Below, piece after piece: positions 4,465 through 15,222 of a stretch of 40,079 nt of DNA. The position numbers and the translations under genes are program-made. Within the stretch, counting starts at the first letter, position 1. The number at the start of each line of letters is the position of its first letter. Below the pieces are notes generated by a model, which saw nothing but the letters and a program-made list of their open reading frames with translations, was not told the origin of the DNA and ran no database searches. The stretch lies in assembly GCA_017435865.1 (NCBI GenBank), contig JAFSEF010000041.1, forward strand, positions 1-40,079. The letters are read 5' to 3'. Source of the DNA: Clostridia bacterium. GTDB taxonomy: Bacteria > Bacillota > Clostridia > Oscillospirales > Acutalibacteraceae.

Positions 4465-4629
4465 ACAAAGACTGTCTGTGACCGACGGAGCAGAACCGGC
4501 AGATGCAATCGTATTTTGTTGCATTTGTCTGTTAAAAGCGGAATTGACCGCATGGAAGCAGTGAGTTCAGTCTGTTTTGCCGACCGTCTGGGCAGTCTTC
4601 CTCTTGCAAAAAGGGGCAGGCTGTTTTTT
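4465..4629 (+). promoter_or_regulatory. ZTP (pfl) riboswitch with terminator
   Basis: The purine leader carries the two conserved blocks of the ZTP/ZMP aptamer: 5' GACCGACGGAG (4480-4490) and 3' CCGTCTGGGC (4584-4593), with a variable linker. An intrinsic terminator starts within the 3' block: CAGTCTTCCTCTT pairs with AAGGGGCAGGCTG (one mismatch) and is followed by seven T (about 4593-4629). The known logic of this class is that ZTP or AICAR monophosphate, which build up when 10-formyl-THF is short, stabilises the aptamer and prevents termination. The overlap here fits such an ON switch. The class call rests on recognised motifs; no covariance model was run. Confidence 0.85.
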
Positions 4630-4654: not shown

Positions 4655-5149
4655 ATGAAAAAAGTTGCCGTTATCATGGGTTCCGACAGCGATCTGCCTG
4701 TCGTAGAAAAAGCCATCACAACGCTCAGGGAATATGATGTTCCTGCGGAAGTGCACGTTTATTCCGCACACAGAACACCCGAACAGGCGAGAGAATTTGC
4801 ACTGCAGGCCAGAAAGAACGGCTTCGGTGCCATCATCTGTGCCGCAGGAAAAGCAGCACATCTTGCAGGTGCCTTTGCTGCCAACACAACCTTGCCGGTG
4901 ATCGGCATTCCCGTAAAGAGTTCCACCCTTGACGGTATGGATGCTCTTCTTTCCACCGTGCAGATGCCCGCAGGCATTCCTGTTGCAACCGTTGCCATTG
5001 ACGGTGCTGCCAATGCTGCACTGCTTGCCATTGAAATTCTGAGTGTGTCCGATGATGCACTTGCAGAACGCTTGCAGGCCGCACGTGCTGCCGCAACCGA
5101 AGCAGTTCTTGCAAAGGATGCAGCTGTTGTTGCAAAATTTAATTCATAA
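4655..5149 (+). CDS. purE: PurE, N5-CAIR mutase / AIR carboxylase
   Basis: A 164-aa protein for the carboxylation step of purine synthesis that yields CAIR. Motifs are MGSDSDLPVVEKA at the N-terminus, the SAHRTPEQ loop, CAAGKAAHLAGAFA and GIPVKSSTLDGMDALLS, all around the active site of the octamer. The ATG at 4655 follows ACGGAGGA by 5 bases and lies just after the riboswitch terminator. In-frame sequence upstream falls inside the riboswitch and is not coding. No purK is seen in the window, so whether it works as class I (N5-CAIR mutase) or directly on AIR and CO2 is open. It is the first gene of the operon, 72 bases before purF. Confidence 0.95.
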   Translation: MKKVAVIMGSDSDLPVVEKAITTLREYDVPAEVHVYSAHRTPEQAREFALQARKNGFGAIICAAGKAAHLAGAFAANTTLPVIGIPVKSSTLDGMDALLSTVQMPAGIPVATVAIDGAANAALLAIEILSVSDDALAERLQAARAAATEAVLAKDAAVVAKFNS

Positions 5150-5221
5150 ATCAATAAAGGCGGAGGATTCCGTCTTTTTTTCGTTGCTATAAGAGAAAAA
5201 CTATAACTGAGGAGGAAAACA

Positions 5222-6646
5222 ATGGGCGGTTTTTTCGGTGCAGTTTCAAAAAATGACTGCATTCTTGATGTTTTTTTCGGTACGGATTATCATTCCCATC
5301 TGGGTACACGCAGAGCCGGTATGGCTGCATACAATCCGACTGACGGGTTTCAGCGTGAAATCCACAATATAGAAAACTCACCGTTCCGCACGAAGTTTGA
5401 AGATACCCTTGAAGAAATGCACGGCAATTCCTGCATCGGTATTATCAGCGATTCCGATCCGCAGCCGATGCTCATCCGTTCCAATTTAGGAACGTATGCC
5501 ATTTGCACCATCGGGGTCATCAACAACGCAAAAGAGCTGATTGATTCTTTCCTGTCTTTCAGCGGCGGTCATTTCGGTGCCATGAGCGGCGGCAGAATCA
5601 ACAATACAGAACTTGTTGCGGCACTCATCAATCAGAAAAGCGATTTCTGTGAGGGCATCCGCTTTGCACAAAAGCAGATTGACGGCACTGCTTCCATCCT
5701 GATTCTTAAAGAAGACGGATCTCTGCTTGCTGCCCGTGACAAGCTCGGCAGACTGCCCGTGCTCATCGGCAAAAGGGAAGACGGCTACTGTGTTTCGTTT
5801 GAATCTTTTGCTTATTACAAGCTCGGATATGAAAATTACAAAGAGCTCGGACCGGGTGAAATCGTCTCACTGACAGCAGACAGCTGCGAAGTGGTTTCTC
5901 CCGCAAATAATGAAATGAAGATCTGTGCTTTCCTGTGGTCTTATTACGGATACCCGACCTCTGTGTATGAAGGTATCAATGTCGAGTGTATGCGTACAAG
6001 AAACGGCGAAATCATGGCAGCCTTTGAAAGAGACAGCGGCAATCTGCCCGATGTCGATTTTGTCTGCGGTGTTCCCGATTCGGGTACACCCCATGCCATC
6101 GGTTATGCCAACGAAAGCCGCATTGCTTTTGCAAGACCCTTTATCAAATATACTCCCACCTGGCCGCGTTCGTTCATGCCGCAGAATCAGCAGGAACGCA
6201 ACCGCGTGGCAAAAATGAAGCTCGTTCCCATTCACGATCTCATCGAAGGCAAAAAGCTGTTGTTTGTGGACGACAGCATTGTACGCGGCACGCAGCTGAG
6301 AGAAACGGTTGACTTTTTGTATGAAAACGGTGCAAAGGAAGTGCACATCCGTTCTGCCTGTCCGCCTATTATGTACGGATGCAAATACCTGAACTTTTCA
6401 AGAAGCAATTCCGATCTTGATCTGATTGCACGGCAGACCATCCGCGAACTCGAGGGCGAAGCAGGTGACAAGTATATTGAAGAATATTCGGATCCCACCA
6501 CCGAACGCGGCAAAAATCTCCGCAAAGCCATCTGTCAGAAACTTCATTTTGCATCCCTGGAATACCAGTCCATTGAAAACTTAATCAAAGCCATCGGGCT
6601 TCCCAAAGAGAATATCTGCACCTATTGCTGGAACGGCAAGGGTTGA
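5222..6646 (+). CDS. purF: PurF-like amidophosphoribosyltransferase lacking the glutaminase Cys
   Basis: A 474-aa protein for the first committed purine step (PRPP to phosphoribosylamine). The phosphoribosyltransferase half is intact: [13 protein letters not shown], then [11 protein letters not shown] with Asp350-Asp351. Four Cys that could hold the B. subtilis-type 4Fe-4S cluster are present (about 235, 387, 466 and 469). The N-terminal Ntn glutaminase half is recognisable but degenerate. The protein starts MGGFFGAV, so Gly replaces the catalytic Cys1. The usual HRGQ..AG, RY(S/A)T and HNG motifs read [15 protein letters not shown] and IGVINN. It therefore probably uses free ammonia or a partner glutaminase, or is a variant subgroup. 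GAGGAG precedes the ATG. Position between purE and purM supports a purine role. Confidence 0.88.
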
Positions 6647-6663: not shown

Positions 6664-7704
6664 ATGATTGAAAATTCAAGAAGCGAAAGTTATGCAGCAG
6701 CCGGCGTTGATATTACCGCAGGTTACAAAGCTGTCGAACTGATGAAAACCCACATTGCACGCACTCTCACAAGCGGCGTCGTTTCCGATGTCGGCGGTTT
6801 CGGCGGTCTGTTCGCTCTGCCCGAAGGCTATCAGAAACCTGTTCTTGTTTCCGGTACGGACGGTGTCGGCACAAAGCTCAAACTTGCATTTTTGCTCGAT
6901 AAGCATGATACGGTCGGTATTGACTGTGTTGCCATGTGTGTCAACGATGTCATCTGCTGCGGTGCAAAGCCTTTATTCTTCCTCGACTACATTGCCTGCG
7001 GCAAGAATGTTCCCGAACGCATTGCACAGATCGTTGCAGGTGTTGCAGAAGGTTGTGTGCAGTCAGGTGCTGCTCTCATCGGCGGTGAAACGGCTGAAAT
7101 GCCCGGTTTCTACCCCATCGACGAATATGACCTTGCAGGTTTTGCAGTGGGTATCGTCGAAAAGGACAAAATTCTCAACAACAAATCCATGAACGCAGGC
7201 GACGTCATCATCGCACTGCCTTCTTCGGGTGTGCATTCCAACGGTTTCTCCCTTGTCCGCAAGGTGTTCAATGTGGAGCATACCGATCTTCGTATGCCTC
7301 TTGATGCTCTGGGCGGCAAAGGTCTGGGCGAAACCCTCCTGACTCCCACCAAGATTTATGTCAAGCCCATGACCGCATTGTTTGATGCCGTTACGGTCAA
7401 GGCTGTTTCCCATATCACGGGCGGCGGTTTCTATGAAAACATTCCGCGTTCTCTGCCCGACGGCTTCTGTGCAAAGATCGAAAAGAGTGCCGTCCGCATT
7501 CTTCCCATCTTCGATCTGCTTGCAAAGACCGGCAACATCGACGAAAGAGATATGTTCAACACCTTCAACATGGGTGTCGGTATGAGCTGTGTGGTTGCCA
7601 AGGAAGATGCCGACAAGGCACTCGGAATCCTGCGTGCAAACGGCGAAGATGCTTACATCCTCGGCGAAATCGTCAAGGGTGAAGAAAAGGTGCAGCTGAT
7701 TTAA
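6664..7704 (+). CDS. purM: PurM, AIR synthetase
   Basis: A 346-aa phosphoribosylformylglycinamidine cyclo-ligase, which closes the imidazole ring using ATP. Family motifs are [16 protein letters not shown], the [14 protein letters not shown] nucleotide loop, [33 protein letters not shown] and [14 protein letters not shown]. The start is ATG 6664. An upstream in-frame ATG at 6625 would overlap the end of purF and lacks a ribosome binding site, whereas GAGAAAGG lies before 6664. The gene begins 17 bases after the purF stop, and purN starts one base after its own stop. Length and motifs are normal. Confidence 0.97.
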
Positions 7705-7705
7705 C

Positions 7706-8323
7706 ATGAATAACACACCGAAAACAAAAATTGCCGTGCTTGTCAGCGGCGGCGGCACAAATTTGCAGGCTATTTTAGATGCACAGCGTGACGGAAAAAT
7801 CACCGACGGGGAAGTGGTGTTGGTCATTTCCAACAATCCCGACGCATATGCACTCGAAAGAGCAAAAAATGCAGGTGTCAAGGGTGTTGTGGTGCCGAAA
7901 AAAGGCAGAACAAGAGAGGACTTTGAAAAAGACCTCGTGGCTACCCTCGAAGAAGCAGGCATTGAGCTGATTATTCTTGCAGGCTTCATGTGCATTCTGT
8001 CGGCTGATTTTACAAACCGTTATCCCGAACGCATTATAAATGTCCATCCGTCTTTGATCCCTTCGTTCTGCGGTGAAGGCTTTTACGGACTGAGAGTCCA
8101 TGAAGCAGCACTGTCCTACGGCGTGAAGGTGACGGGTGCAACGGTGCACTTTGTCAATGAAATTCCCGACGGCGGCAGGATTATTCTGCAGAGAGCCGTG
8201 GAAATCAAAGACGGTGACACCCCCGAAATTTTACAAAAACGAGTGATGGAACAGGCTGAATGGCATCTGCTGCCTGCAGCGGCACAGCTTGTAAGCAAAA
8301 ACATCCGTGAAAGGAAAGAATAA
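7706..8323 (+). CDS. purN: PurN, GAR transformylase
   Basis: A 205-aa phosphoribosylglycinamide formyltransferase that moves a formyl group from 10-formyl-THF to GAR. It shows the N-terminal VLVSGGGTNLQAIL phosphate loop, the catalytic Asn and His in INVHPSLIPSF and the catalytic Asp in NEIPDGG. It starts one base after the purM stop, which implies translational coupling. As a folate-dependent step it fits control by the upstream ZTP riboswitch. The folate loop reads IPSFCGEGFYGLRVHEA, where many members have the shorter FxGxxAxxxA form. Confidence 0.95.
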   Translation: MNNTPKTKIAVLVSGGGTNLQAILDAQRDGKITDGEVVLVISNNPDAYALERAKNAGVKGVVVPKKGRTREDFEKDLVATLEEAGIELIILAGFMCILSADFTNRYPERIINVHPSLIPSFCGEGFYGLRVHEAALSYGVKVTGATVHFVNEIPDGGRIILQRAVEIKDGDTPEILQKRVMEQAEWHLLPAAAQLVSKNIRERKE

Positions 8324-8326
8324 ATT

Positions 8327-9043
8327 ATGGCTTATGAACTCCATTGCATCGGCAAATTGCTGAGCGAAAATACATATCCCGGCAGAGGCATCATTGCAGG
8401 TCTCACTCCCGACGGCAAAAAGGCCGTCAGTGCTTATTTCATCATGGGCAGAAGTGCAAATTCCAGAAATCGTGTGTTCTCTCTCAAGGACAACGGCGAG
8501 TTGTATACCGAACCCTTTGATGCAAGCAAGGTCGAAGATCCGTCACTCATCATCTATGCAGCCGTTCGCAAACTCGGCAACAAGCTCATTGTCACCAACG
8601 GCGATCAGACCGATACCGTGTATGACCTCATGAGCGAAGGCAAGACCTTCTCCGCAGCTCTTGCAACCCGTTGCTTTGAGCCCGACGGTCCCAACTGGAC
8701 CCCGAGAATCAGCGTTCTGCTTGACTTTGAAGACGGCTTCAATTACTCCATGAGCATTCTCAAGAGTGCAGATGCAGACGGCTCCGCCTGCAACCGCTTC
8801 ACATTCGACTATGCTCCCATTGCAGGTGTCGGTCATTTTATTCACACCTATGACCATGACGGCAATCCCATTCCGACCTTCTCGGGTGAACCCGAAAGAA
8901 TCAAAACATTCGACGACATGAACGAATTTGCGGAAGTTGTGTGGAACAACCTCAACGAAGATAACAAGATTTCTCTGTTCGTGCGTTACGTTGACCTTGC
9001 AACCGGCGAAGCAGAAACCAAAATCTACAATAAAAATATCTGA
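8327..9043 (+). CDS. purO: PurO-type IMP cyclohydrolase
   Basis: A 238-aa protein of the archaeal-type IMP cyclohydrolase family (PurO, PF07826), which closes FAICAR to IMP. Visible features are NTYPGRGIIAGLTPDGKKAV near the N-terminus, the FIMGRSANSRNRVF segment, TPRISVLL and GVGHFIHTYDHDGNP. It lies directly before a separate AICAR transformylase gene, so the two jobs of bifunctional PurH are split here. Stop-to-start spacing is 3 bases to purN and 11 bases to the next gene. The family call comes from recognised motifs and gene context; I could not run a profile. Confidence 0.88.
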   Translation: MAYELHCIGKLLSENTYPGRGIIAGLTPDGKKAVSAYFIMGRSANSRNRVFSLKDNGELYTEPFDASKVEDPSLIIYAAVRKLGNKLIVTNGDQTDTVYDLMSEGKTFSAALATRCFEPDGPNWTPRISVLLDFEDGFNYSMSILKSADADGSACNRFTFDYAPIAGVGHFIHTYDHDGNPIPTFSGEPERIKTFDDMNEFAEVVWNNLNEDNKISLFVRYVDLATGEAETKIYNKNI

Positions 9044-9054
9044 AGGAGACTGAC

Positions 9055-10239
9055 ATGAACGAATTTGAACTCAAATACGGCTGTAACCCCAATCAGAAAC
9101 CGTCCCGCATTTTCATGGAAGACGGCTCCGACCTGCCCGTAGAAATTCTTTGCGGCAGACCCGGCTACATCAATTTCCTCGATGCGTTCAACGCATGGCA
9201 GCTTGTCAAGGAACTCAAGGACATTCTCGGCATGCCCGCTGCCACTTCTTTCAAGCATGTCAGCCCCGCAGGTGCGGCAGTCGGCGTCAAGCTCAGCGAT
9301 GCACAGAAAAAAGCCTGCTTCGTGGACGATATTGAAGGTCTTGACGATTCTCCTCTTGCCTGCGCTTATGCCAGAGCCAGAGGCAGCGACCGTATGTCCT
9401 CCTTCGGCGACTGGATCGCCCTCAGTGATGTCTGCGACAAGACCACGGCTCTCATCATCAAACGTGAGGTTTCCGACGGCGTGATCGCTCCCGGTTACAC
9501 CGACGAAGCACTCGAAATTCTCAAAACAAAACGCAACGGTACTTACAATATTGTGAAAATCGATCCCGATTATGTGCCTGCCGAAATCGAACGCAAGCAG
9601 GTATTCGGCATCACATTCGAGCAGGGAAGAAATAACTTCCGCATTGACGAAGAACTTCTCGGCAATGTTGTGACCGCCAACAAGGAACTGCCCGACAGTG
9701 CAAAGAGAGACCTTATCATTGCTCTTATCACCCTCAAATACACCCAGTCCAACTCCGTTTGCTTTGCTGTGGACGGTCAGGCAATCGGTGTCGGTGCCGG
9801 TCAGCAGTCGCGTGTGCACTGCACCCGTCTTGCAGGCAACAAGGCCGATTTGTGGCATCTTCGCCTGAGTGAAAAGGTGCTGTCTCTGCCCTTCCGTGCA
9901 GAAGTCGGAAGACCCGACAGAAACAACTGCATCGACATTTATCTGTCCGAAGACGACGATGTTGTTCTTGCAGACGGCAACTGGCAGAAGTGGTTTACCG
10001 AACAGCCCGAACGCTTCACCGCAGAAGAAAAGAAAGAATATCTCTCCCACATCACGGGCGTTTCCCTCGGCTCGGATGCTTTCTTCCCGTTTGACGACAA
10101 CATTGAACGTGCCAAGAGAAGCGGTGTCAGCTACATTGCAGAGCCCGGCGGCAGCAAGCGTGACGAAGACGTTATTGCAGCCTGCGACAAATACGGCATG
10201 GCAATGGCCTTCACAGGCATGAGACTGTTCCACCATTGA
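9055..10239 (+). CDS. purV: AICAR transformylase (stand-alone PurH C-domain)
   Basis: A 394-aa protein matching the AICAR formyltransferase part of PurH, with no IMP cyclohydrolase (MGS-like) domain in front. Signature pieces are the opening LKYGCNPNQKPS, the Lys-His catalytic motif SFKHVSPAGAAVG, ARARGSDRMSSFGDW, KYTQSNSVCFA, GAGQQSRVHC and the end SDAFFPFDDNI...GVSYIAEPGGS. It transfers a formyl group from 10-formyl-THF to AICAR, making FAICAR for the PurO-type enzyme upstream. AAGGAGA lies 6 bases before the ATG. The symbol purV is used for stand-alone enzymes of this kind; some databases label them purH. Confidence 0.92.
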   Translation: MNEFELKYGCNPNQKPSRIFMEDGSDLPVEILCGRPGYINFLDAFNAWQLVKELKDILGMPAATSFKHVSPAGAAVGVKLSDAQKKACFVDDIEGLDDSPLACAYARARGSDRMSSFGDWIALSDVCDKTTALIIKREVSDGVIAPGYTDEALEILKTKRNGTYNIVKIDPDYVPAEIERKQVFGITFEQGRNNFRIDEELLGNVVTANKELPDSAKRDLIIALITLKYTQSNSVCFAVDGQAIGVGAGQQSRVHCTRLAGNKADLWHLRLSEKVLSLPFRAEVGRPDRNNCIDIYLSEDDDVVLADGNWQKWFTEQPERFTAEEKKEYLSHITGVSLGSDAFFPFDDNIERAKRSGVSYIAEPGGSKRDEDVIAACDKYGMAMAFTGMRLFHH

Positions 10240-10249
10240 GGTACGAAAA

Positions 10250-11518
10250 ATGAAAAAAGTAATGCTCATCGGCAGTGGCGGACGCGAACATGCTCTGCTT
10301 AAAAAACTGCGTGAAAATAAAGAAATCGGCGAAATCTTTGTTCTGCCCGGCAACGGCGGAATGAAGGAAGAAGCCACCCTTGTACCCATCGGTGCAAAGG
10401 ACATTGACGGCATGGTGCAGTTTGCAAAGGAAAATGCAATCGACTTTGCCGTGGTTGCACCCGACGATCCTCTGGTGCTCGGTGCCGTGGATGCACTCGA
10501 AGCCATCGGTGTGAAATGCTTTGGCCCGAAAAAGGATGCTGCCATCATCGAAGGCAGCAAGATTTTCTCCAAAAACTTAATGAAAAAGTACGGCATTCCC
10601 ACCGCACAGTACGAAGTTTTCTATGACGTTGCACCTGCACTCGCATATCTGCGTACAGCTCCCATCCCTACCGTTATCAAAGCCGACGGTCTGGCACTGG
10701 GCAAGGGTGTTGTCATTTGCACCACCCGTGAAGAAGCCACCGCTGCGGTTGTTTCCATGATGGAAGACGGTCAGTTCGGTGAATCGGGTAAGAGCATTGT
10801 CATTGAAGAATTTTTGGAAGGCCCCGAAGTGTCGGTGCTCAGTTTCACCGACGGCAACGTGGTCGTCCCCATGGTTTCTTCCATGGATCACAAACGTGCT
10901 CTTGACAATGACGAAGGTCTCAACACAGGCGGTATGGGTACGGTCGCACCCAATCCGTACTACACAAAAGAGATTGCAGACCGTTGCATGGAAGAAATCT
11001 TCCTGCCCACTATCAAGGCCATGAATGCAGAAGGCAGAACTTTCAAGGGTTGCCTGTATTTCGGTCTGATGCTCACAAAGGACGGTCCGAAGGTCATCGA
11101 ATACAACTGCCGTTTCGGTGATCCCGAAACCCAGGTCGTGCTGCCGCTTCTTGAAACAGACCTGTTTGAAATCATGAATGCGGTTGCTGACGGCAAGCTT
11201 GCAGATATTGATGTAAAATTTGCCGACAAGAATGCTGCTTGCGTCATTCTTGCATCCGCAGGCTATCCCGCTTCTTACGAAAAGGGCAAGCTCTTCACGG
11301 TGGATGCCGACTTCGGTGCAACCCTTTATTGTGCAGGTGTCAAGGCCGACGGTGATGTTCTTAAAACCGACGGCGGCAGAGTGGCAGGTGTTACCGCCAC
11401 CGCAGACACCCTCAAAGAAGCCCTTGCAATTGCTTACAAGGAAGCCGAAAAAGTACATTTTGAAAATAAATACAGCCGCTCTGACATCGGTCAGCGTGCG
11501 CTGAACGCCGTTCTGTAA
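10250..11518 (+). CDS. purD: PurD, GAR synthetase
   Basis: A 422-aa phosphoribosylamine-glycine ligase of the ATP-grasp superfamily. It opens with the LIGSGGREHAL phosphate loop. The ATP-grasp core includes PTVIKADGLALGKGVVIC, EEFLEGPEVSVLSF, TGGMGTVAPNP and EYNCRFGDPETQVVLP, with the metal-binding Glu and Asn in the last. It makes GAR from phosphoribosylamine, glycine and ATP. It starts 10 bases after the transformylase stop and ends 11 bases before purL. Length is typical for the family. Confidence 0.97.
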   Translation: MKKVMLIGSGGREHALLKKLRENKEIGEIFVLPGNGGMKEEATLVPIGAKDIDGMVQFAKENAIDFAVVAPDDPLVLGAVDALEAIGVKCFGPKKDAAIIEGSKIFSKNLMKKYGIPTAQYEVFYDVAPALAYLRTAPIPTVIKADGLALGKGVVICTTREEATAAVVSMMEDGQFGESGKSIVIEEFLEGPEVSVLSFTDGNVVVPMVSSMDHKRALDNDEGLNTGGMGTVAPNPYYTKEIADRCMEEIFLPTIKAMNAEGRTFKGCLYFGLMLTKDGPKVIEYNCRFGDPETQVVLPLLETDLFEIMNAVADGKLADIDVKFADKNAACVILASAGYPASYEKGKLFTVDADFGATLYCAGVKADGDVLKTDGGRVAGVTATADTLKEALAIAYKEAEKVHFENKYSRSDIGQRALNAVL

Positions 11519-11529
11519 AGGAGATTTCT

Positions 11530-14500
11530 ATGGTTTACAGAGTATATGTAGAAAAGAAAAAAGAACTTGCAAACGAAGCCAACGCACTGAAAAACGAAGC
11601 CGTTTCTCTGCTTGGTATTGAAAATCTGACAGATGTTCGTCTTTTCAACCGTTATGACGTTGAAAACATCGAAAAAGACCTGTTTGACTATGCCGTCAAC
11701 ACCGTGTTCTCCGAGCCGCAGATGGACATTGTTACTTTCTCTCTGCCCGAAACGGATGCTTTTGTGTTCGCTGTGGAATTCCTGCCCGGTCAGTTTGATC
11801 AGCGTGCAGACTCCGCCGCACAGTGCATTCAGATCCTGTCGCAGGGTGAACGTCCGACCGTACGTTCTGCAAAGGTCTATATGCTTTACGGCAACCTGAG
11901 TGAACAGGACATTGCCGCAGTCAAGAATTATGTCATCAACCCCGTCGAATCAAGAGAAGCAGCACTTGGTCGTTTTGAAACCCTCAAGACCGAGTTTGAA
12001 ATTCCCGAAACGGTTGAAACGCTCCACGGTTTCCGTGAACTTGAAATGGACGGCATTGCAGAATTTGTCAAAAAGTATGCCCTTGCCATGGATGCGGATG
12101 ATCTGATGTTCTGCCGCGACTATTTCCGCAGCGAAGACAGAGATCCCACCATCACGGAAGTGCGTATGCTCGACACATACTGGTCTGACCATTGCCGTCA
12201 TACCACATTCCTGACCACCATTGACAACGCAAGCTTTGAAGACAGCTTGCTGCAGGAAACCTACGAGCAGTACATGGCTGTCCGCAAGGAACTCGGCAGA
12301 GAAAACAAGCCTGTCAACCTCATGGATCTTGCAACTGTTGCCGCAAGATACCTCAAAAAGAACGGCAAGCTGCCCAAGCTTGACGAATCCGAAGAAATCA
12401 ATGCCTGCACCGTCAAAATGCAGATCGACCACGACGGTGTCAAAGAAGACTGGCTTCTTCTGTTCAAAAATGAAACCCACAATCACCCGACCGAAATTGA
12501 ACCTTTCGGCGGTGCTGCCACCTGCATCGGCGGTGCCATCCGTGACCCGCTGTCAGGCAGAAGCTATGTCTATGCCGCTATGCGTGTGACAGGTGCTGCC
12601 AACCCGCTTCGTCCCGTCAGCGAAACCATCAAGGGCAAGCTGCCCCAGAGAAAGATCGTCACCACCGCTGCCGCAGGGTATTCCTCCTACGGCAACCAGA
12701 TCGGTCTTGCCACCGGTCAGGTCGATGAACTGTATCACGAAGGCTATGCTGCAAAACGCCTTGAAATCGGTGCTGTTGTCGGTGCAGCTCCCGCTGAAAA
12801 TGTCCGCCGTGAATGCCCTGTAGATGGCGATATTGTCATTCTGCTCGGCGGCAGAACCGGCCGTGACGGCTGCGGCGGTGCAACAGGCTCGTCCAAGTCC
12901 CACACCCTTGAATCTTTGACTTCCTGCGGTGCAGAAGTGCAGAAGGGCAACGCCCCCGAAGAAAGAAAACTGCAAAGACTGTTCCGCAACAAGGAAGCAT
13001 CGCTTCTCATCAAACGCTGCAATGACTTCGGTGCAGGCGGTGTTTCGGTTGCCATCGGTGAACTTGCCGACGGTCTTGAAATCAACCTCAATGCTGTTCC
13101 CAAGAAGTACGAAGGTCTTGACGGCACGGAACTTGCCATCAGTGAATCGCAGGAAAGAATGGCGGTTGTTGTCGCTAAGGAAGATGTTGCACGCTTCAAG
13201 GAACTCGCAGACAGCGAAAACCTCGAAGCTACCGTCGTTGCAGAAGTCAAAGCCGAACCCAGACTCAGAATGTTCTGGAACGGCAACTGCATCTGTGATA
13301 TTTCCCGTGAATTCCTCAACTCCAACGGTGCACAGAAGCACACCGACATTGCTCCCGAAGCTCCCAAGTGCTTCAAAAAGGCAACACCTGCCAACTTTGC
13401 AGACGGCATGAAAGCCCTTGCAGATGATCTCAACACCTGCTCCAAACGCGGTCTGTCCGAAAGATTCGACTCCACCATCGGTGCAGGTACGGTCATGATG
13501 CCTTTCGGCGGTAAATATCAGATCACACCCAACCAGGCTATGGTCAACAAGGTTTCCGTTGAAACCGGCTCGACCGACACCGTTTCCTATATGGCATGGG
13601 GCTACAACCCCTACATTGCCGAAAAGAGTCCCTACCACAGTGCCTACCTTGCAGTTGTGGAATCGGTTACCAAGCTCATCGGTGCAGGTGCTTCTTTTGA
13701 AGATGTGTACCTGACCTTCCAGGAATATTTTGAAAAGCCCAACCGCGATCCCAAGCGTTGGGGTCAGCCGCTTGCAGCACTGCTCGGTGCATTCAAGGCA
13801 CAGCTTGACCTCGGCATCGGTTCCATTGGCGGTAAGGACTCCATGAGCGGCTCGTTTGAAGACATTGACGTTCCGCCCACACTTGTCAGCTTTGCAGTTA
13901 CCACAGGTGATGCAAGCGAAGTCATCTCCCCCGAATTCAAAAAAGCAGGCAGCCGTCTTGTGCTTGTCACACCCGAAACGGACGAAAACCATCTGCCTGT
14001 TGCCGCTTCTCTGATTGCAAACTACAATGCTGTCACGGCTCTTATGCGTGCAGGTGAGGTGCTTTCCGCATCCACACCCACCCTCGGCGGTCTTGCAGAC
14101 CTTGCCATGAAGAATGCATTCGGCAACGGCATCGGTGTAAAGTTTGAAAACATCAGTGACGATATGCTGTTCGGCTACAACTACGGTGCACTTCTTCTTG
14201 AACTGACCGAGGATGCCGATATGATCGGCACATTGGTCGGTTACACCACCGAAGAAGCAGCACTCGTTAAGGGTGACGAAAAGGTAGCACTTGACGAACT
14301 GCTCAAAGTGTATGAAGACAAGCTTGAACCCGTCTTCTCCTGCAACATCAAAACCGACAAGACTCCTGTTCCCGCTTTCACTTATGCTGCAAAATCGCAT
14401 CCGCACGCATCAACAAGCATTGCCGAGCCGCGTGTACTGATTCCCGTATTCCCCGGCACAAACTGTGAATTCGACACCGCACGTGCCCTTGCAGCAGCCG

Positions 14501-15222
14501 GTGCAAAGCCCGAAATCTTTGTCATCCGCAACCTGACCGCAGCTGCCATTGCAGAATCGGTGGAAGCCTTCTCCAAAAAGATTGCCGATTCGCAGATCAT
14601 CTTCATCCCCGGCGGCTTCTCCGGCGGTGACGAACCCGACGGTTCTGCAAAATTCATCACTTCGTTCTTCCGTAACGCACAGGTGAAGGATGCCGTTCAC
14701 GAGCTTCTTAAAAACCGTGACGGCTTGATGTGCGGTATCTGCAACGGTTTCCAGGCACTTGTCAAGCTCGGTCTTGTTCCCTACGGCGAAATCATCGACA
14801 CCGATGAAAACTGCCCGACACTTACCTATAACCGCATTGCACGCCATCAGTCGAGAATCGTTCATACTCGCATCGCTTCCAACAAGAGCCCCTGGCTTGC
14901 AAACACCAAGGCAGGCGATGTTTACACCGTGCCGATTTCCCACGGCGAAGGCCGCTTCCTTGCAAGCGAAGACCTCATCCGTCAGCTTGCAGCCAACGGA
15001 CAGATCGCAACGCAGTATGTTGATCTCGCAGGCAATCCGACCAATGACATCCGCTTCAATCCCAACGGCTCGTCGCTTGCGGTTGAGGGTATCACCTCGC
15101 CCGACGGCAGAGTATTCGGCAAGATGGGTCACTCCGAACGTAAAGGCAATTTCCTTTACAAGAACGTCCCCGGCGAATACGAAATGGGTATGTTCGATGC
15201 CGCTGTGAAGTATTTCAAATAA
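11530..15222 (+). CDS. purL: PurL, FGAM synthase, large fused form
   Basis: A 1230-aa single-chain phosphoribosylformylglycinamidine synthase. It combines a PurS-like N-terminal part, two AIR-synthase-like halves and a C-terminal class I glutaminase. Motifs are YWSDHCRHTTF, FKNETHNHPTEIEPFGGAATCIGG, SIGGKDSMSGSFED and IPGGFSGGDE. The glutaminase nucleophile is Cys1071 in GICNGFQ, with His1138 and Glu1140 in HGEGRF. It converts FGAR to FGAM using glutamine and ATP. Because the glutaminase is intact here but not in PurF of the same operon, the PurF change is not a general loss of glutamine use. GGAG precedes the ATG, and the gene closes the operon before a strong hairpin. Confidence 0.97.
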   Translation: MVYRVYVEKKKELANEANALKNEAVSLLGIENLTDVRLFNRYDVENIEKDLFDYAVNTVFSEPQMDIVTFSLPETDAFVFAVEFLPGQFDQRADSAAQCIQILSQGERPTVRSAKVYMLYGNLSEQDIAAVKNYVINPVESREAALGRFETLKTEFEIPETVETLHGFRELEMDGIAEFVKKYALAMDADDLMFCRDYFRSEDRDPTITEVRMLDTYWSDHCRHTTFLTTIDNASFEDSLLQETYEQYMAVRKELGRENKPVNLMDLATVAARYLKKNGKLPKLDESEEINACTVKMQIDHDGVKEDWLLLFKNETHNHPTEIEPFGGAATCIGGAIRDPLSGRSYVYAAMRVTGAANPLRPVSETIKGKLPQRKIVTTAAAGYSSYGNQIGLATGQVDELYHEGYAAKRLEIGAVVGAAPAENVRRECPVDGDIVILLGGRTGRDGCGGATGSSKSHTLESLTSCGAEVQKGNAPEERKLQRLFRNKEASLLIKRCNDFGAGGVSVAIGELADGLEINLNAVPKKYEGLDGTELAISESQERMAVVVAKEDVARFKELADSENLEATVVAEVKAEPRLRMFWNGNCICDISREFLNSNGAQKHTDIAPEAPKCFKKATPANFADGMKALADDLNTCSKRGLSERFDSTIGAGTVMMPFGGKYQITPNQAMVNKVSVETGSTDTVSYMAWGYNPYIAEKSPYHSAYLAVVESVTKLIGAGASFEDVYLTFQEYFEKPNRDPKRWGQPLAALLGAFKAQLDLGIGSIGGKDSMSGSFEDIDVPPTLVSFAVTTGDASEVISPEFKKAGSRLVLVTPETDENHLPVAASLIANYNAVTALMRAGEVLSASTPTLGGLADLAMKNAFGNGIGVKFENISDDMLFGYNYGALLLELTEDADMIGTLVGYTTEEAALVKGDEKVALDELLKVYEDKLEPVFSCNIKTDKTPVPAFTYAAKSHPHASTSIAEPRVLIPVFPGTNCEFDTARALAAAGAKPEIFVIRNLTAAAIAESVEAFSKKIADSQIIFIPGGFSGGDEPDGSAKFITSFFRNAQVKDAVHELLKNRDGLMCGICNGFQALVKLGLVPYGEIIDTDENCPTLTYNRIARHQSRIVHTRIASNKSPWLANTKAGDVYTVPISHGEGRFLASEDLIRQLAANGQIATQYVDLAGNPTNDIRFNPNGSSLAVEGITSPDGRVFGKMGHSERKGNFLYKNVPGEYEMGMFDAAVKYFK

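Follow-up and report, generated by a model that had tools for sequence, protein, structure and literature searches.

PurF is a textbook glutamine amidotransferase. Ntn hydrolases require an N-terminal Cys, Ser or Thr, and we take Cys1, Arg26, Arg72, Asn102 and Asp127 (B. subtilis numbering) to be the glutamine-site residues of PurF. E. coli PurF in which Cys1 has been replaced still uses ammonia (PMC3261824), and a second report proposes that external NH3 enters the PurF channel via the glutamine site (PMC12017579). Human CPS1 keeps an inactive glutaminase-like domain, from which the catalytic Cys is absent, and takes its ammonia from outside (PMC4655335). PMC3376133 reports that a branch of the NAD synthetases draws on free ammonia in vivo and that no partner was found for it; the same paper describes separate glutaminase subunits as common among other amidotransferases. 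Our search of titles and abstract openings, with subscription papers outside its scope, found no description of the protein type reported here or of its biochemistry.

The window, a 40,079-nucleotide stretch of contig JAFSEF010000041.1 (assembly GCA_017435865.1, a Clostridia bacterium), encodes a PurF homologue with the N-terminus MGGFFG, referred to here as MG-type PurF, or MG (Table 1). An upstream start supplying a Cys1, raised in the earlier note on this DNA as grounds for doubt, was not found. Namely, no ATG, GTG or TTG lies between the in-frame stop, 18 bases upstream, and position 5222; because the TAA at 5204-5206 is followed by no start codon, neither a start-site error nor an upstream Cys1 accounts for the MGGFFG start. 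In an alignment with B. subtilis PurF (1ao0) and 67 canonical PurFs, Met1 falls in the Cys1 column (Gly2 after Met removal), L27 stands for Arg26, T29 for Gln28, I97 for Asn102 and N128 for Asp127, and a gap spans the Arg72-Thr75 block, leaving Gly27 as the sole examined glutamine-site residue still present. At the level of motifs, HRGQ has become HLGT, the RYxT block is deleted and HNG is lost, and the alignment thereby bears out what the earlier note had noticed: an MGGFF start without Cys1 and altered HRGQ, RY(S/A)T and HNG.

Table 1. Features of the window at and around the MG-type purF gene.
Feature	Position	Strand	Basis and details
ZMP/ZTP riboswitch aptamer at the head of the pur operon, before purE	4468..4600	+	Rfam RF01750, 45.7 bits, gathering score 39
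purE	4655..5149	+	TIGR01162 190 bits, cut-off 149.6 (query 4658-5149); ATG at 4655
Shine-Dalgarno AGGAGG of MG-type purF	5210..5215	+	Sequence; in-frame TAA at 5204-5206
MG-type PurF	5222..6646	+	474 aa; ORF translation, profile and PDB searches, alignment
Glutaminase-like (Ntn GATase) domain, residues 1-229, without Cys1, Arg26, Arg72, Asn102, Asp127	5222..5908	+	Alignment; boundary = B. subtilis residue 230
Phosphoribosyltransferase domain, with PRPP loop DDSIVRGT, Fe-S Cys and altered flexible loop	5909..6643	+	Alignment
purM	6664..7704	+	TIGR00878 447 bits
purN	7706..8323	+	TIGR00639 195 bits
PurO-like IMP cyclohydrolase, under curated cut-off	8327..9043	+	NF003167 48.5 bits, cut-off 150
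AICAR formyltransferase without cyclohydrolase half	9055..10239	+	NF005492 683 bits
purD, phosphoribosylamine consumer	10250..11518	+	TIGR00877 514 bits
purL, intact glutaminase Cys (MCGICNGFQ) and His-x-Glu (HGEG)	11530..15222	+	TIGR01857 1849 bits; motifs read

The same substitutions run through the whole protein type. After removal of 10 of 173 MG and 1 of 68 canonical sequences for their N-terminal start, all 163 MG rows, and none of the 67 canonical rows, combine Met in the Cys1 column with Leu in place of Arg26 and the gap over Arg72-Thr75. The canonical rows all carry Cys1, Arg26, Gln28, Arg72, Tyr73, Thr75, Asn102 and Asp127 (B. subtilis numbering). Thr replaces Gln28 in 162 of the MG rows; Val, Ile or Thr occupies the Asn102 column, Asn102 itself being absent from all 163, and Asp127 is present in one. 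Once Met is removed, residue 1 is Gly in 152 rows and Ser in 11; the window protein, with Gly2 after Met, presents no N-terminal nucleophile of the Ntn GATase kind. Judged by these residues, the MG-type glutaminase domain is predicted to be no longer usable for glutamine cleavage. The best PDB match of the window protein is 1ao0 (E 2.7e-39), and its glutaminase-like half scores 34 bits with Pfam GATase_7 (PF13537, gathering score 25) and 16.3 bits, below the threshold of 27, with GATase_6 (PF13522). With TIGR01134, the PurF equivalog model, the protein reaches 169.4 bits, under the curated cut-off of 350, and MG is outside the curated PurF equivalog as defined by the glutaminase. The Evtepia gabavorous MG protein (L166 6001-7416) begins MGGFCG, with Cys and not Phe at residue 5.

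The phosphoribosyltransferase half retains its PRPP and Fe-S motifs. The PRPP loop DDSIVRGT occupies residues 350-357 of the window protein, which is identical to the canonical motif VDDSIVRGT, and each of the loop's D, D, S, V, R, G and T is found in 163 of 163 MG rows (Ile in 156). The Fe-S ligands C235, C387, C466 and C469, of the B. subtilis type, are likewise kept, each in 162 or 163 of the 163 rows, in agreement with the earlier report of an intact PRPP motif and four 4Fe-4S cysteines. The flexible loop of the PRPP site, which in canonical PurF reads KNRYVGRTF, is rewritten from residue 309 of the window protein onwards and is one residue longer in MG; 158 of 163 MG rows have KYTPTW there, and TPTW is found in 0 of 67 canonical rows.

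The glutaminase-like domain is itself strongly conserved. Its mean pairwise identity is 0.60 in MG and 0.56 in canonical PurF, at least 98% identity is seen in 42 of 227 occupied columns in MG versus 46 of 232 in canonical PurF, and dN/dS of the domain is 0.02-0.11 in 7 of 10 pairs, the other three having no usable GATase value (two for length, one for saturated dS). Residues invariant in MG and specific to it include D22, Y23, H24, S25, L27, T29, H48, F55, R56 and D77, and the conserved motifs of the domain include IHxIxxxPFRTKF and SDxxPQP. Since the domain is under purifying selection, it has been remodelled and is not decaying; a decaying pseudogene is ruled out by the domain conservation and the low dN/dS. 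The idea of a clean glutaminase loss with a conserved remainder thus stands in part: the activity residues are gone, but the domain is as conserved as its canonical counterpart and the PRPP flexible loop has changed.

A fast maximum-likelihood analysis of 70 MG and 47 canonical proteins places MG in a single clade (SH-aLRT 100), with long stems of 2.67 and 2.22 changes per column. Carriers among the best 80 of at least 597 matching stretches are Evtepia gabavorous, Flavonifractor sp. An112 and Frisingicoccus caecimuris, together with numerous Clostridia assemblies from rumen and gut. On the evidence of these sequences, MG is a deep, widespread and uncharacterised PurF clade and not a lone mutant; the suspicion that MGGFFG proteins form a subgroup was correct, with one clade present in 107 of 197 genomes of the order. 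Its occurrence in Bacteroidota, considered at first, is unsupported by the single control, Bacteroides ihuae, whose match passes E<=1e-10 and not 1e-30.

The operon around MG has the complete look that was first ascribed to it. A ZTP riboswitch is followed by purE, MG, purM, purN, the PurO-like gene, the AICAR transformylase gene, purD and purL, and the operon in the window contains no canonical purF and no extra glutaminase gene. The final two purine steps are split between a bacterial PurO-like protein, far under the cut-offs of the archaeal models, and an AICAR transformylase on its own (8327-10239). Of 9 MG-only relatives scanned, 8 likewise have a ZTP riboswitch in front of purE. Among 60 fetched MG loci, 41 have at least two other pur genes around them (16 of 20 among loci from MG-only genomes) and 11 have a canonical PurF gene adjoining MG. 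At L104-L113 and L081 the canonical and MG PurF genes are adjacent in either order, an arrangement that would allow mixed oligomers.

Across a sample of 197 genomes from the order to which the source bacterium belongs, MG is found in 107 and PurF above the family cut-off in 129: 51 genomes have both, 78 have canonical PurF only and 12 have neither. The remaining 56 are MG-only: MG is matched (its scores leave a gap between 385 and 170 bits) and TIGR01134 gives nothing above 350 bits, a definition that sets weaker TIGR01134 matches aside and would miss partial canonical copies under the cut-off. Among the MG-only genomes 27 are at least 95% complete, and purD is present in 54 of 56, including 26 of these 27. 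Seven of the 12 genomes with neither PurF type also have purD, so a missing match is no proof of absence. One MG-only genome, G020 (L069, 98% complete), has no purD match and no carB match; MG may have outlived the pathway there. In the window genome, whose assembly is 84.8% complete, a search found no second PurF homologue worth the name. In a wider phylum sample, MG occurs in 24 of 398 genomes, 20 of them outside the earlier set; 19 of these 20 also have canonical PurF and MG is mostly stand-alone, and its role may thus be a different one in those genomes. In a phylogeny of 84 MG genes, which is a gene tree and not a species tree, at least 17 switches between the MG-only and dual states were needed.

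Stand-alone MG genes share no recurrent partner gene, carB in one family excepted. When neighbours at 37 such loci (MG located in 32) were clustered, few families recurred: an ABC-type ATPase-like protein (7 loci, its distance from MG varying), CarB (5) and a spurious antisense-like ORF (5). A dedicated partner was rejected because 10 neighbouring proteins scanned, SfsA, SLH, DUF1508, GNAT and a sensor kinase among them, show no common theme. In four genomes of another family (G207, G292, G381 and G406; five loci), MG comes immediately after carB, both on one strand, and 20-80 bases separate the open frames. A single carA is present in each of these genomes, beside another carB, and the extra carB linked to MG is without carA.

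Given these orphan carB-MG pairs, we examined CarA of the window genome. CarA is the glutaminase subunit of carbamoyl-phosphate synthase, with which pyrimidine and arginine synthesis begin, and as a class I glutaminase it has another fold than the PurF glutaminase and is unrelated to it. Its nucleophile elbow reads AVGLGH where seven of eight relatives (L284-L290) have GICLGH, and its His/Glu motif is NPD versus HPE in those seven, so that Cys has become Gly, His has become Asn and Glu has become Asp in the catalytic triad. The eighth relative, the second CarA of G257 (L292), has lost its Cys. G257 has two CarA genes, one intact and the other, with Cys to Gly and His to Asp, adjoining a carB. 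The triad-less CarA of the window genome still passes the model 'glutamine-hydrolyzing carbamoyl-phosphate synthase small subunit' (311 bits versus a cut-off of 307), and CarB of the same genome is complete. This CarB (L321, contig C120, 30000-44000) is a 1349-aa open frame with the start motif at residue 19, about 300 residues beyond a normal CarB and of the same length in many relatives.

Loss of CarA accompanies MG across the sample. No CarA match (E<=1e-60) was obtained in 29 of 52 MG-only genomes with carB versus 9 of 125 canonical-bearing genomes (Fisher p 8e-12; family-stratified Mantel-Haenszel p 9e-7, odds ratio 11; Fisher tests ignore kinship, and family stratification accounts for it only in part). 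We read CarA in 21 of the 23 CarA-positive MG-only genomes (all but G038 and G195), in 32 of 67 canonical-only genomes, 20 of them picked from lower scores, and in 18 of 49 dual genomes. Fifteen of the 21 MG-only CarAs lack the Cys, with G069 and G083 retaining His and Glu despite this loss, and six are intact. The canonical-only CarAs comprise 24 with Cys-His-Glu, 2 with Cys-His-Asp and 6 without Cys, and an intact CarA is present in 16 of the 18 dual genomes, 4 of which have a second, degenerate CarA. In aggregate, a Cys-bearing CarA is missing from 44 of 50 assessed MG-only genomes with carB versus 17 of 59 assessed canonical-bearing genomes; it is missing from 14 of 40 assessed canonical-only genomes, a count in which low scorers are oversampled and several genomes have further unread CarA matches. 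CarA loss and MG do not go together exclusively, as 6 of the 50 assessed MG-only genomes keep an intact CarA.

The surroundings of carB were read in 18 of the 29 MG-only genomes that gave no CarA match. The CarA N-domain (PF00988) is matched in 5 of the 29, namely G152 and four CarB fusions (G046, G080, G106 and G134). In the fusions the CarA N-domain is joined to CarB and the CarB start motif lies near residue 175-185, so there is no room for a glutaminase domain. In G064, G087, G127, G141, G176 and G186, also MG-only and without a CarA match, MG is preceded by carB in the same orientation at a distance of 1.5-7 kb.

Two other proteins of this genome, PurL from the window and HisH from outside it, retain their glutaminase Cys, so glutamine use has not been lost throughout the genome, and loss of all glutaminases there is ruled out. 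PF00117 has three matches in the window genome: CarA and two proteins identified by their sequence, HisH and one that is MetA-like. No GuaA or PyrG glutaminase domain was found by PF00117 in this 84.8% complete genome, and this absence may reflect assembly incompleteness or further glutaminase loss.

We consider it probable, from sequence and genomic context, that the window protein is this organism's PurF and acts as an ammonia-dependent phosphoribosylamine synthase. The conserved phosphoribosyltransferase loop would bind PRPP, whose C1 would be attacked by free NH3 to give phosphoribosylamine and pyrophosphate, and PurD, encoded in the same operon, would take up the phosphoribosylamine. The operon, the riboswitch and the presence of purD in nearly all MG-only genomes suggest that MG makes phosphoribosylamine for purine synthesis, and the lost residues, together with the linked loss of the CarA glutaminase, point to NH3 and not glutamine as its substrate. 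From these observations we infer the enzyme activity, the ammonia route and cells that would live on ambient NH3 for the PurF step. The glutaminase domain would persist in the fold in remodelled form, most likely serving as an ammonia entry vestibule or as a structural element.

MG is best read as part of a partly coordinated switch to ammonia. In a broader form, to which we give even odds, a large set of gut Clostridia would feed both committed aminations of nucleotide synthesis with free NH3: the PurF step from PRPP to phosphoribosylamine and the CarB step from bicarbonate to carbamoyl phosphate. The Ntn-type PurF glutaminase and the unrelated triad-type CarA glutaminase would have disappeared together, PurL and HisH keeping their dependence on glutamine, and the dead PurF domain would have acquired a new invariant motif and now take in or sense ammonia. 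We conjecture that energy saving in ammonia-rich guts was the motive. Of the three options first offered for this protein (free ammonia, a partner glutaminase or a new amidotransfer route), ammonia is the best supported, with no recurrent partner found and the CarA glutaminase often lost in MG-only genomes.

Two other arrangements were weighed. MG could be the synthase half of a complex, receiving NH3 from a separate glutaminase or, where both occur, from canonical PurF; the 11 of 60 fetched loci in which the two are neighbours fit such a complex, as do the separate glutaminase subunits common elsewhere (PMC3376133). We regard it as unlikely, however, since 56 of 197 genomes have MG and no canonical PurF above the cut-off, the operon in the window lacks an extra glutaminase gene, few families recur around stand-alone MG loci, and CarA itself is missing or degenerate in most assessed MG-only genomes. 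Alternatively, MG might have another job, such as supplying a phosphoribosylamine-like product to another pathway or regulating PRPP use, with MG-only genomes obtaining purines by salvage or an unseen route. A second canonical purF combined with another job had been named at the outset as a finding that would refute the observation. The copy exists in relatives, in 51 of the 107 MG carriers within the order and in 19 of the 20 from elsewhere, and none was found in the window genome (84.8% complete); the many stand-alone MG genes and the presence of purD in 7 of 12 genomes with neither type would also suit another job. That MG occupies the place of purF between purE and purM in ZTP-riboswitch operons, that purD is present in 54 of 56 MG-only genomes, and that 162-163 of 163 rows retain the PRPP loop and the Fe-S cysteines nevertheless make this reading very unlikely.

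A relocated active site, by which MG would hydrolyse glutamine or another amide using D22, Y23, H24, S25, T29, H48, R56, D77 or Cys74, bears on the remodelled domain itself. The first eight of these show at least 98% invariance in MG, and canonical PurF either has another residue there or lacks the position; Cys74 is found in 151 of 163 MG rows. Yet a relocated Cys nucleophile was rejected, as Cys74 is Ile in the window protein and Cys13 is not conserved; residue 2 is Gly in 152 of 163 rows (Ser in 11), and Gly does not answer the Ntn nucleophile requirement; and the Arg and Asn that hold glutamine are gone from all 163 rows. We therefore consider a relocated site extremely improbable, and an ammonia-dependent PurF remains our preferred reading.

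A glutaminase-less clade is the only PurF found in more than a quarter of the sampled genomes of a gut and rumen order, which affects how nitrogen flow, glutamine demand and the response to glutamine-analogue drugs are modelled in such bacteria. Automatic names can mislead, as with a triad-less CarA that passes a glutamine-hydrolyzing model. The link to CarA lifts the finding beyond a single odd PurF, and the linked loss of a second glutaminase poses a testable question, namely when cells drop ATP-costly glutamine for ambient ammonia. Because MG carriers include cultured isolates (Evtepia gabavorous, Flavonifractor sp. and Frisingicoccus caecimuris), experiments are possible.

MG shares with canonical PurF (B. 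subtilis 1ao0, E. coli 1ecb) its two domains, the PRPP loop, the B. subtilis-type Fe-S cysteines and the place in the pur operon; it differs in lacking Cys1, Arg26, Arg72, Asn102 and Asp127, in its rewritten flexible loop and in forming a separate clade. Methanocorpusculum labreanum Mlab_0150 is described as a recent duplicate beside a normal PurF, whereas the MG clade is old and in many genomes supplies the sole PurF found. Type N NadE, the single-domain NAD synthetase, is similarly a partnerless branch of an amidotransferase family that runs on free ammonia (PMC3376133), but it has no glutaminase domain at all, whereas that of MG is conserved and remodelled. A parallel in function is human CPS1, which likewise keeps an inactive glutaminase-like domain and has external ammonia as its substrate (PMC4655335). 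CPS1 has another fold and reaction and is a mitochondrial urea-cycle enzyme, whereas MG is a bacterial phosphoribosyltransferase with an Ntn-type remnant. By this analogy, MG most likely works as CPS1 does for carbamoyl phosphate, as an analogue and not as kin.
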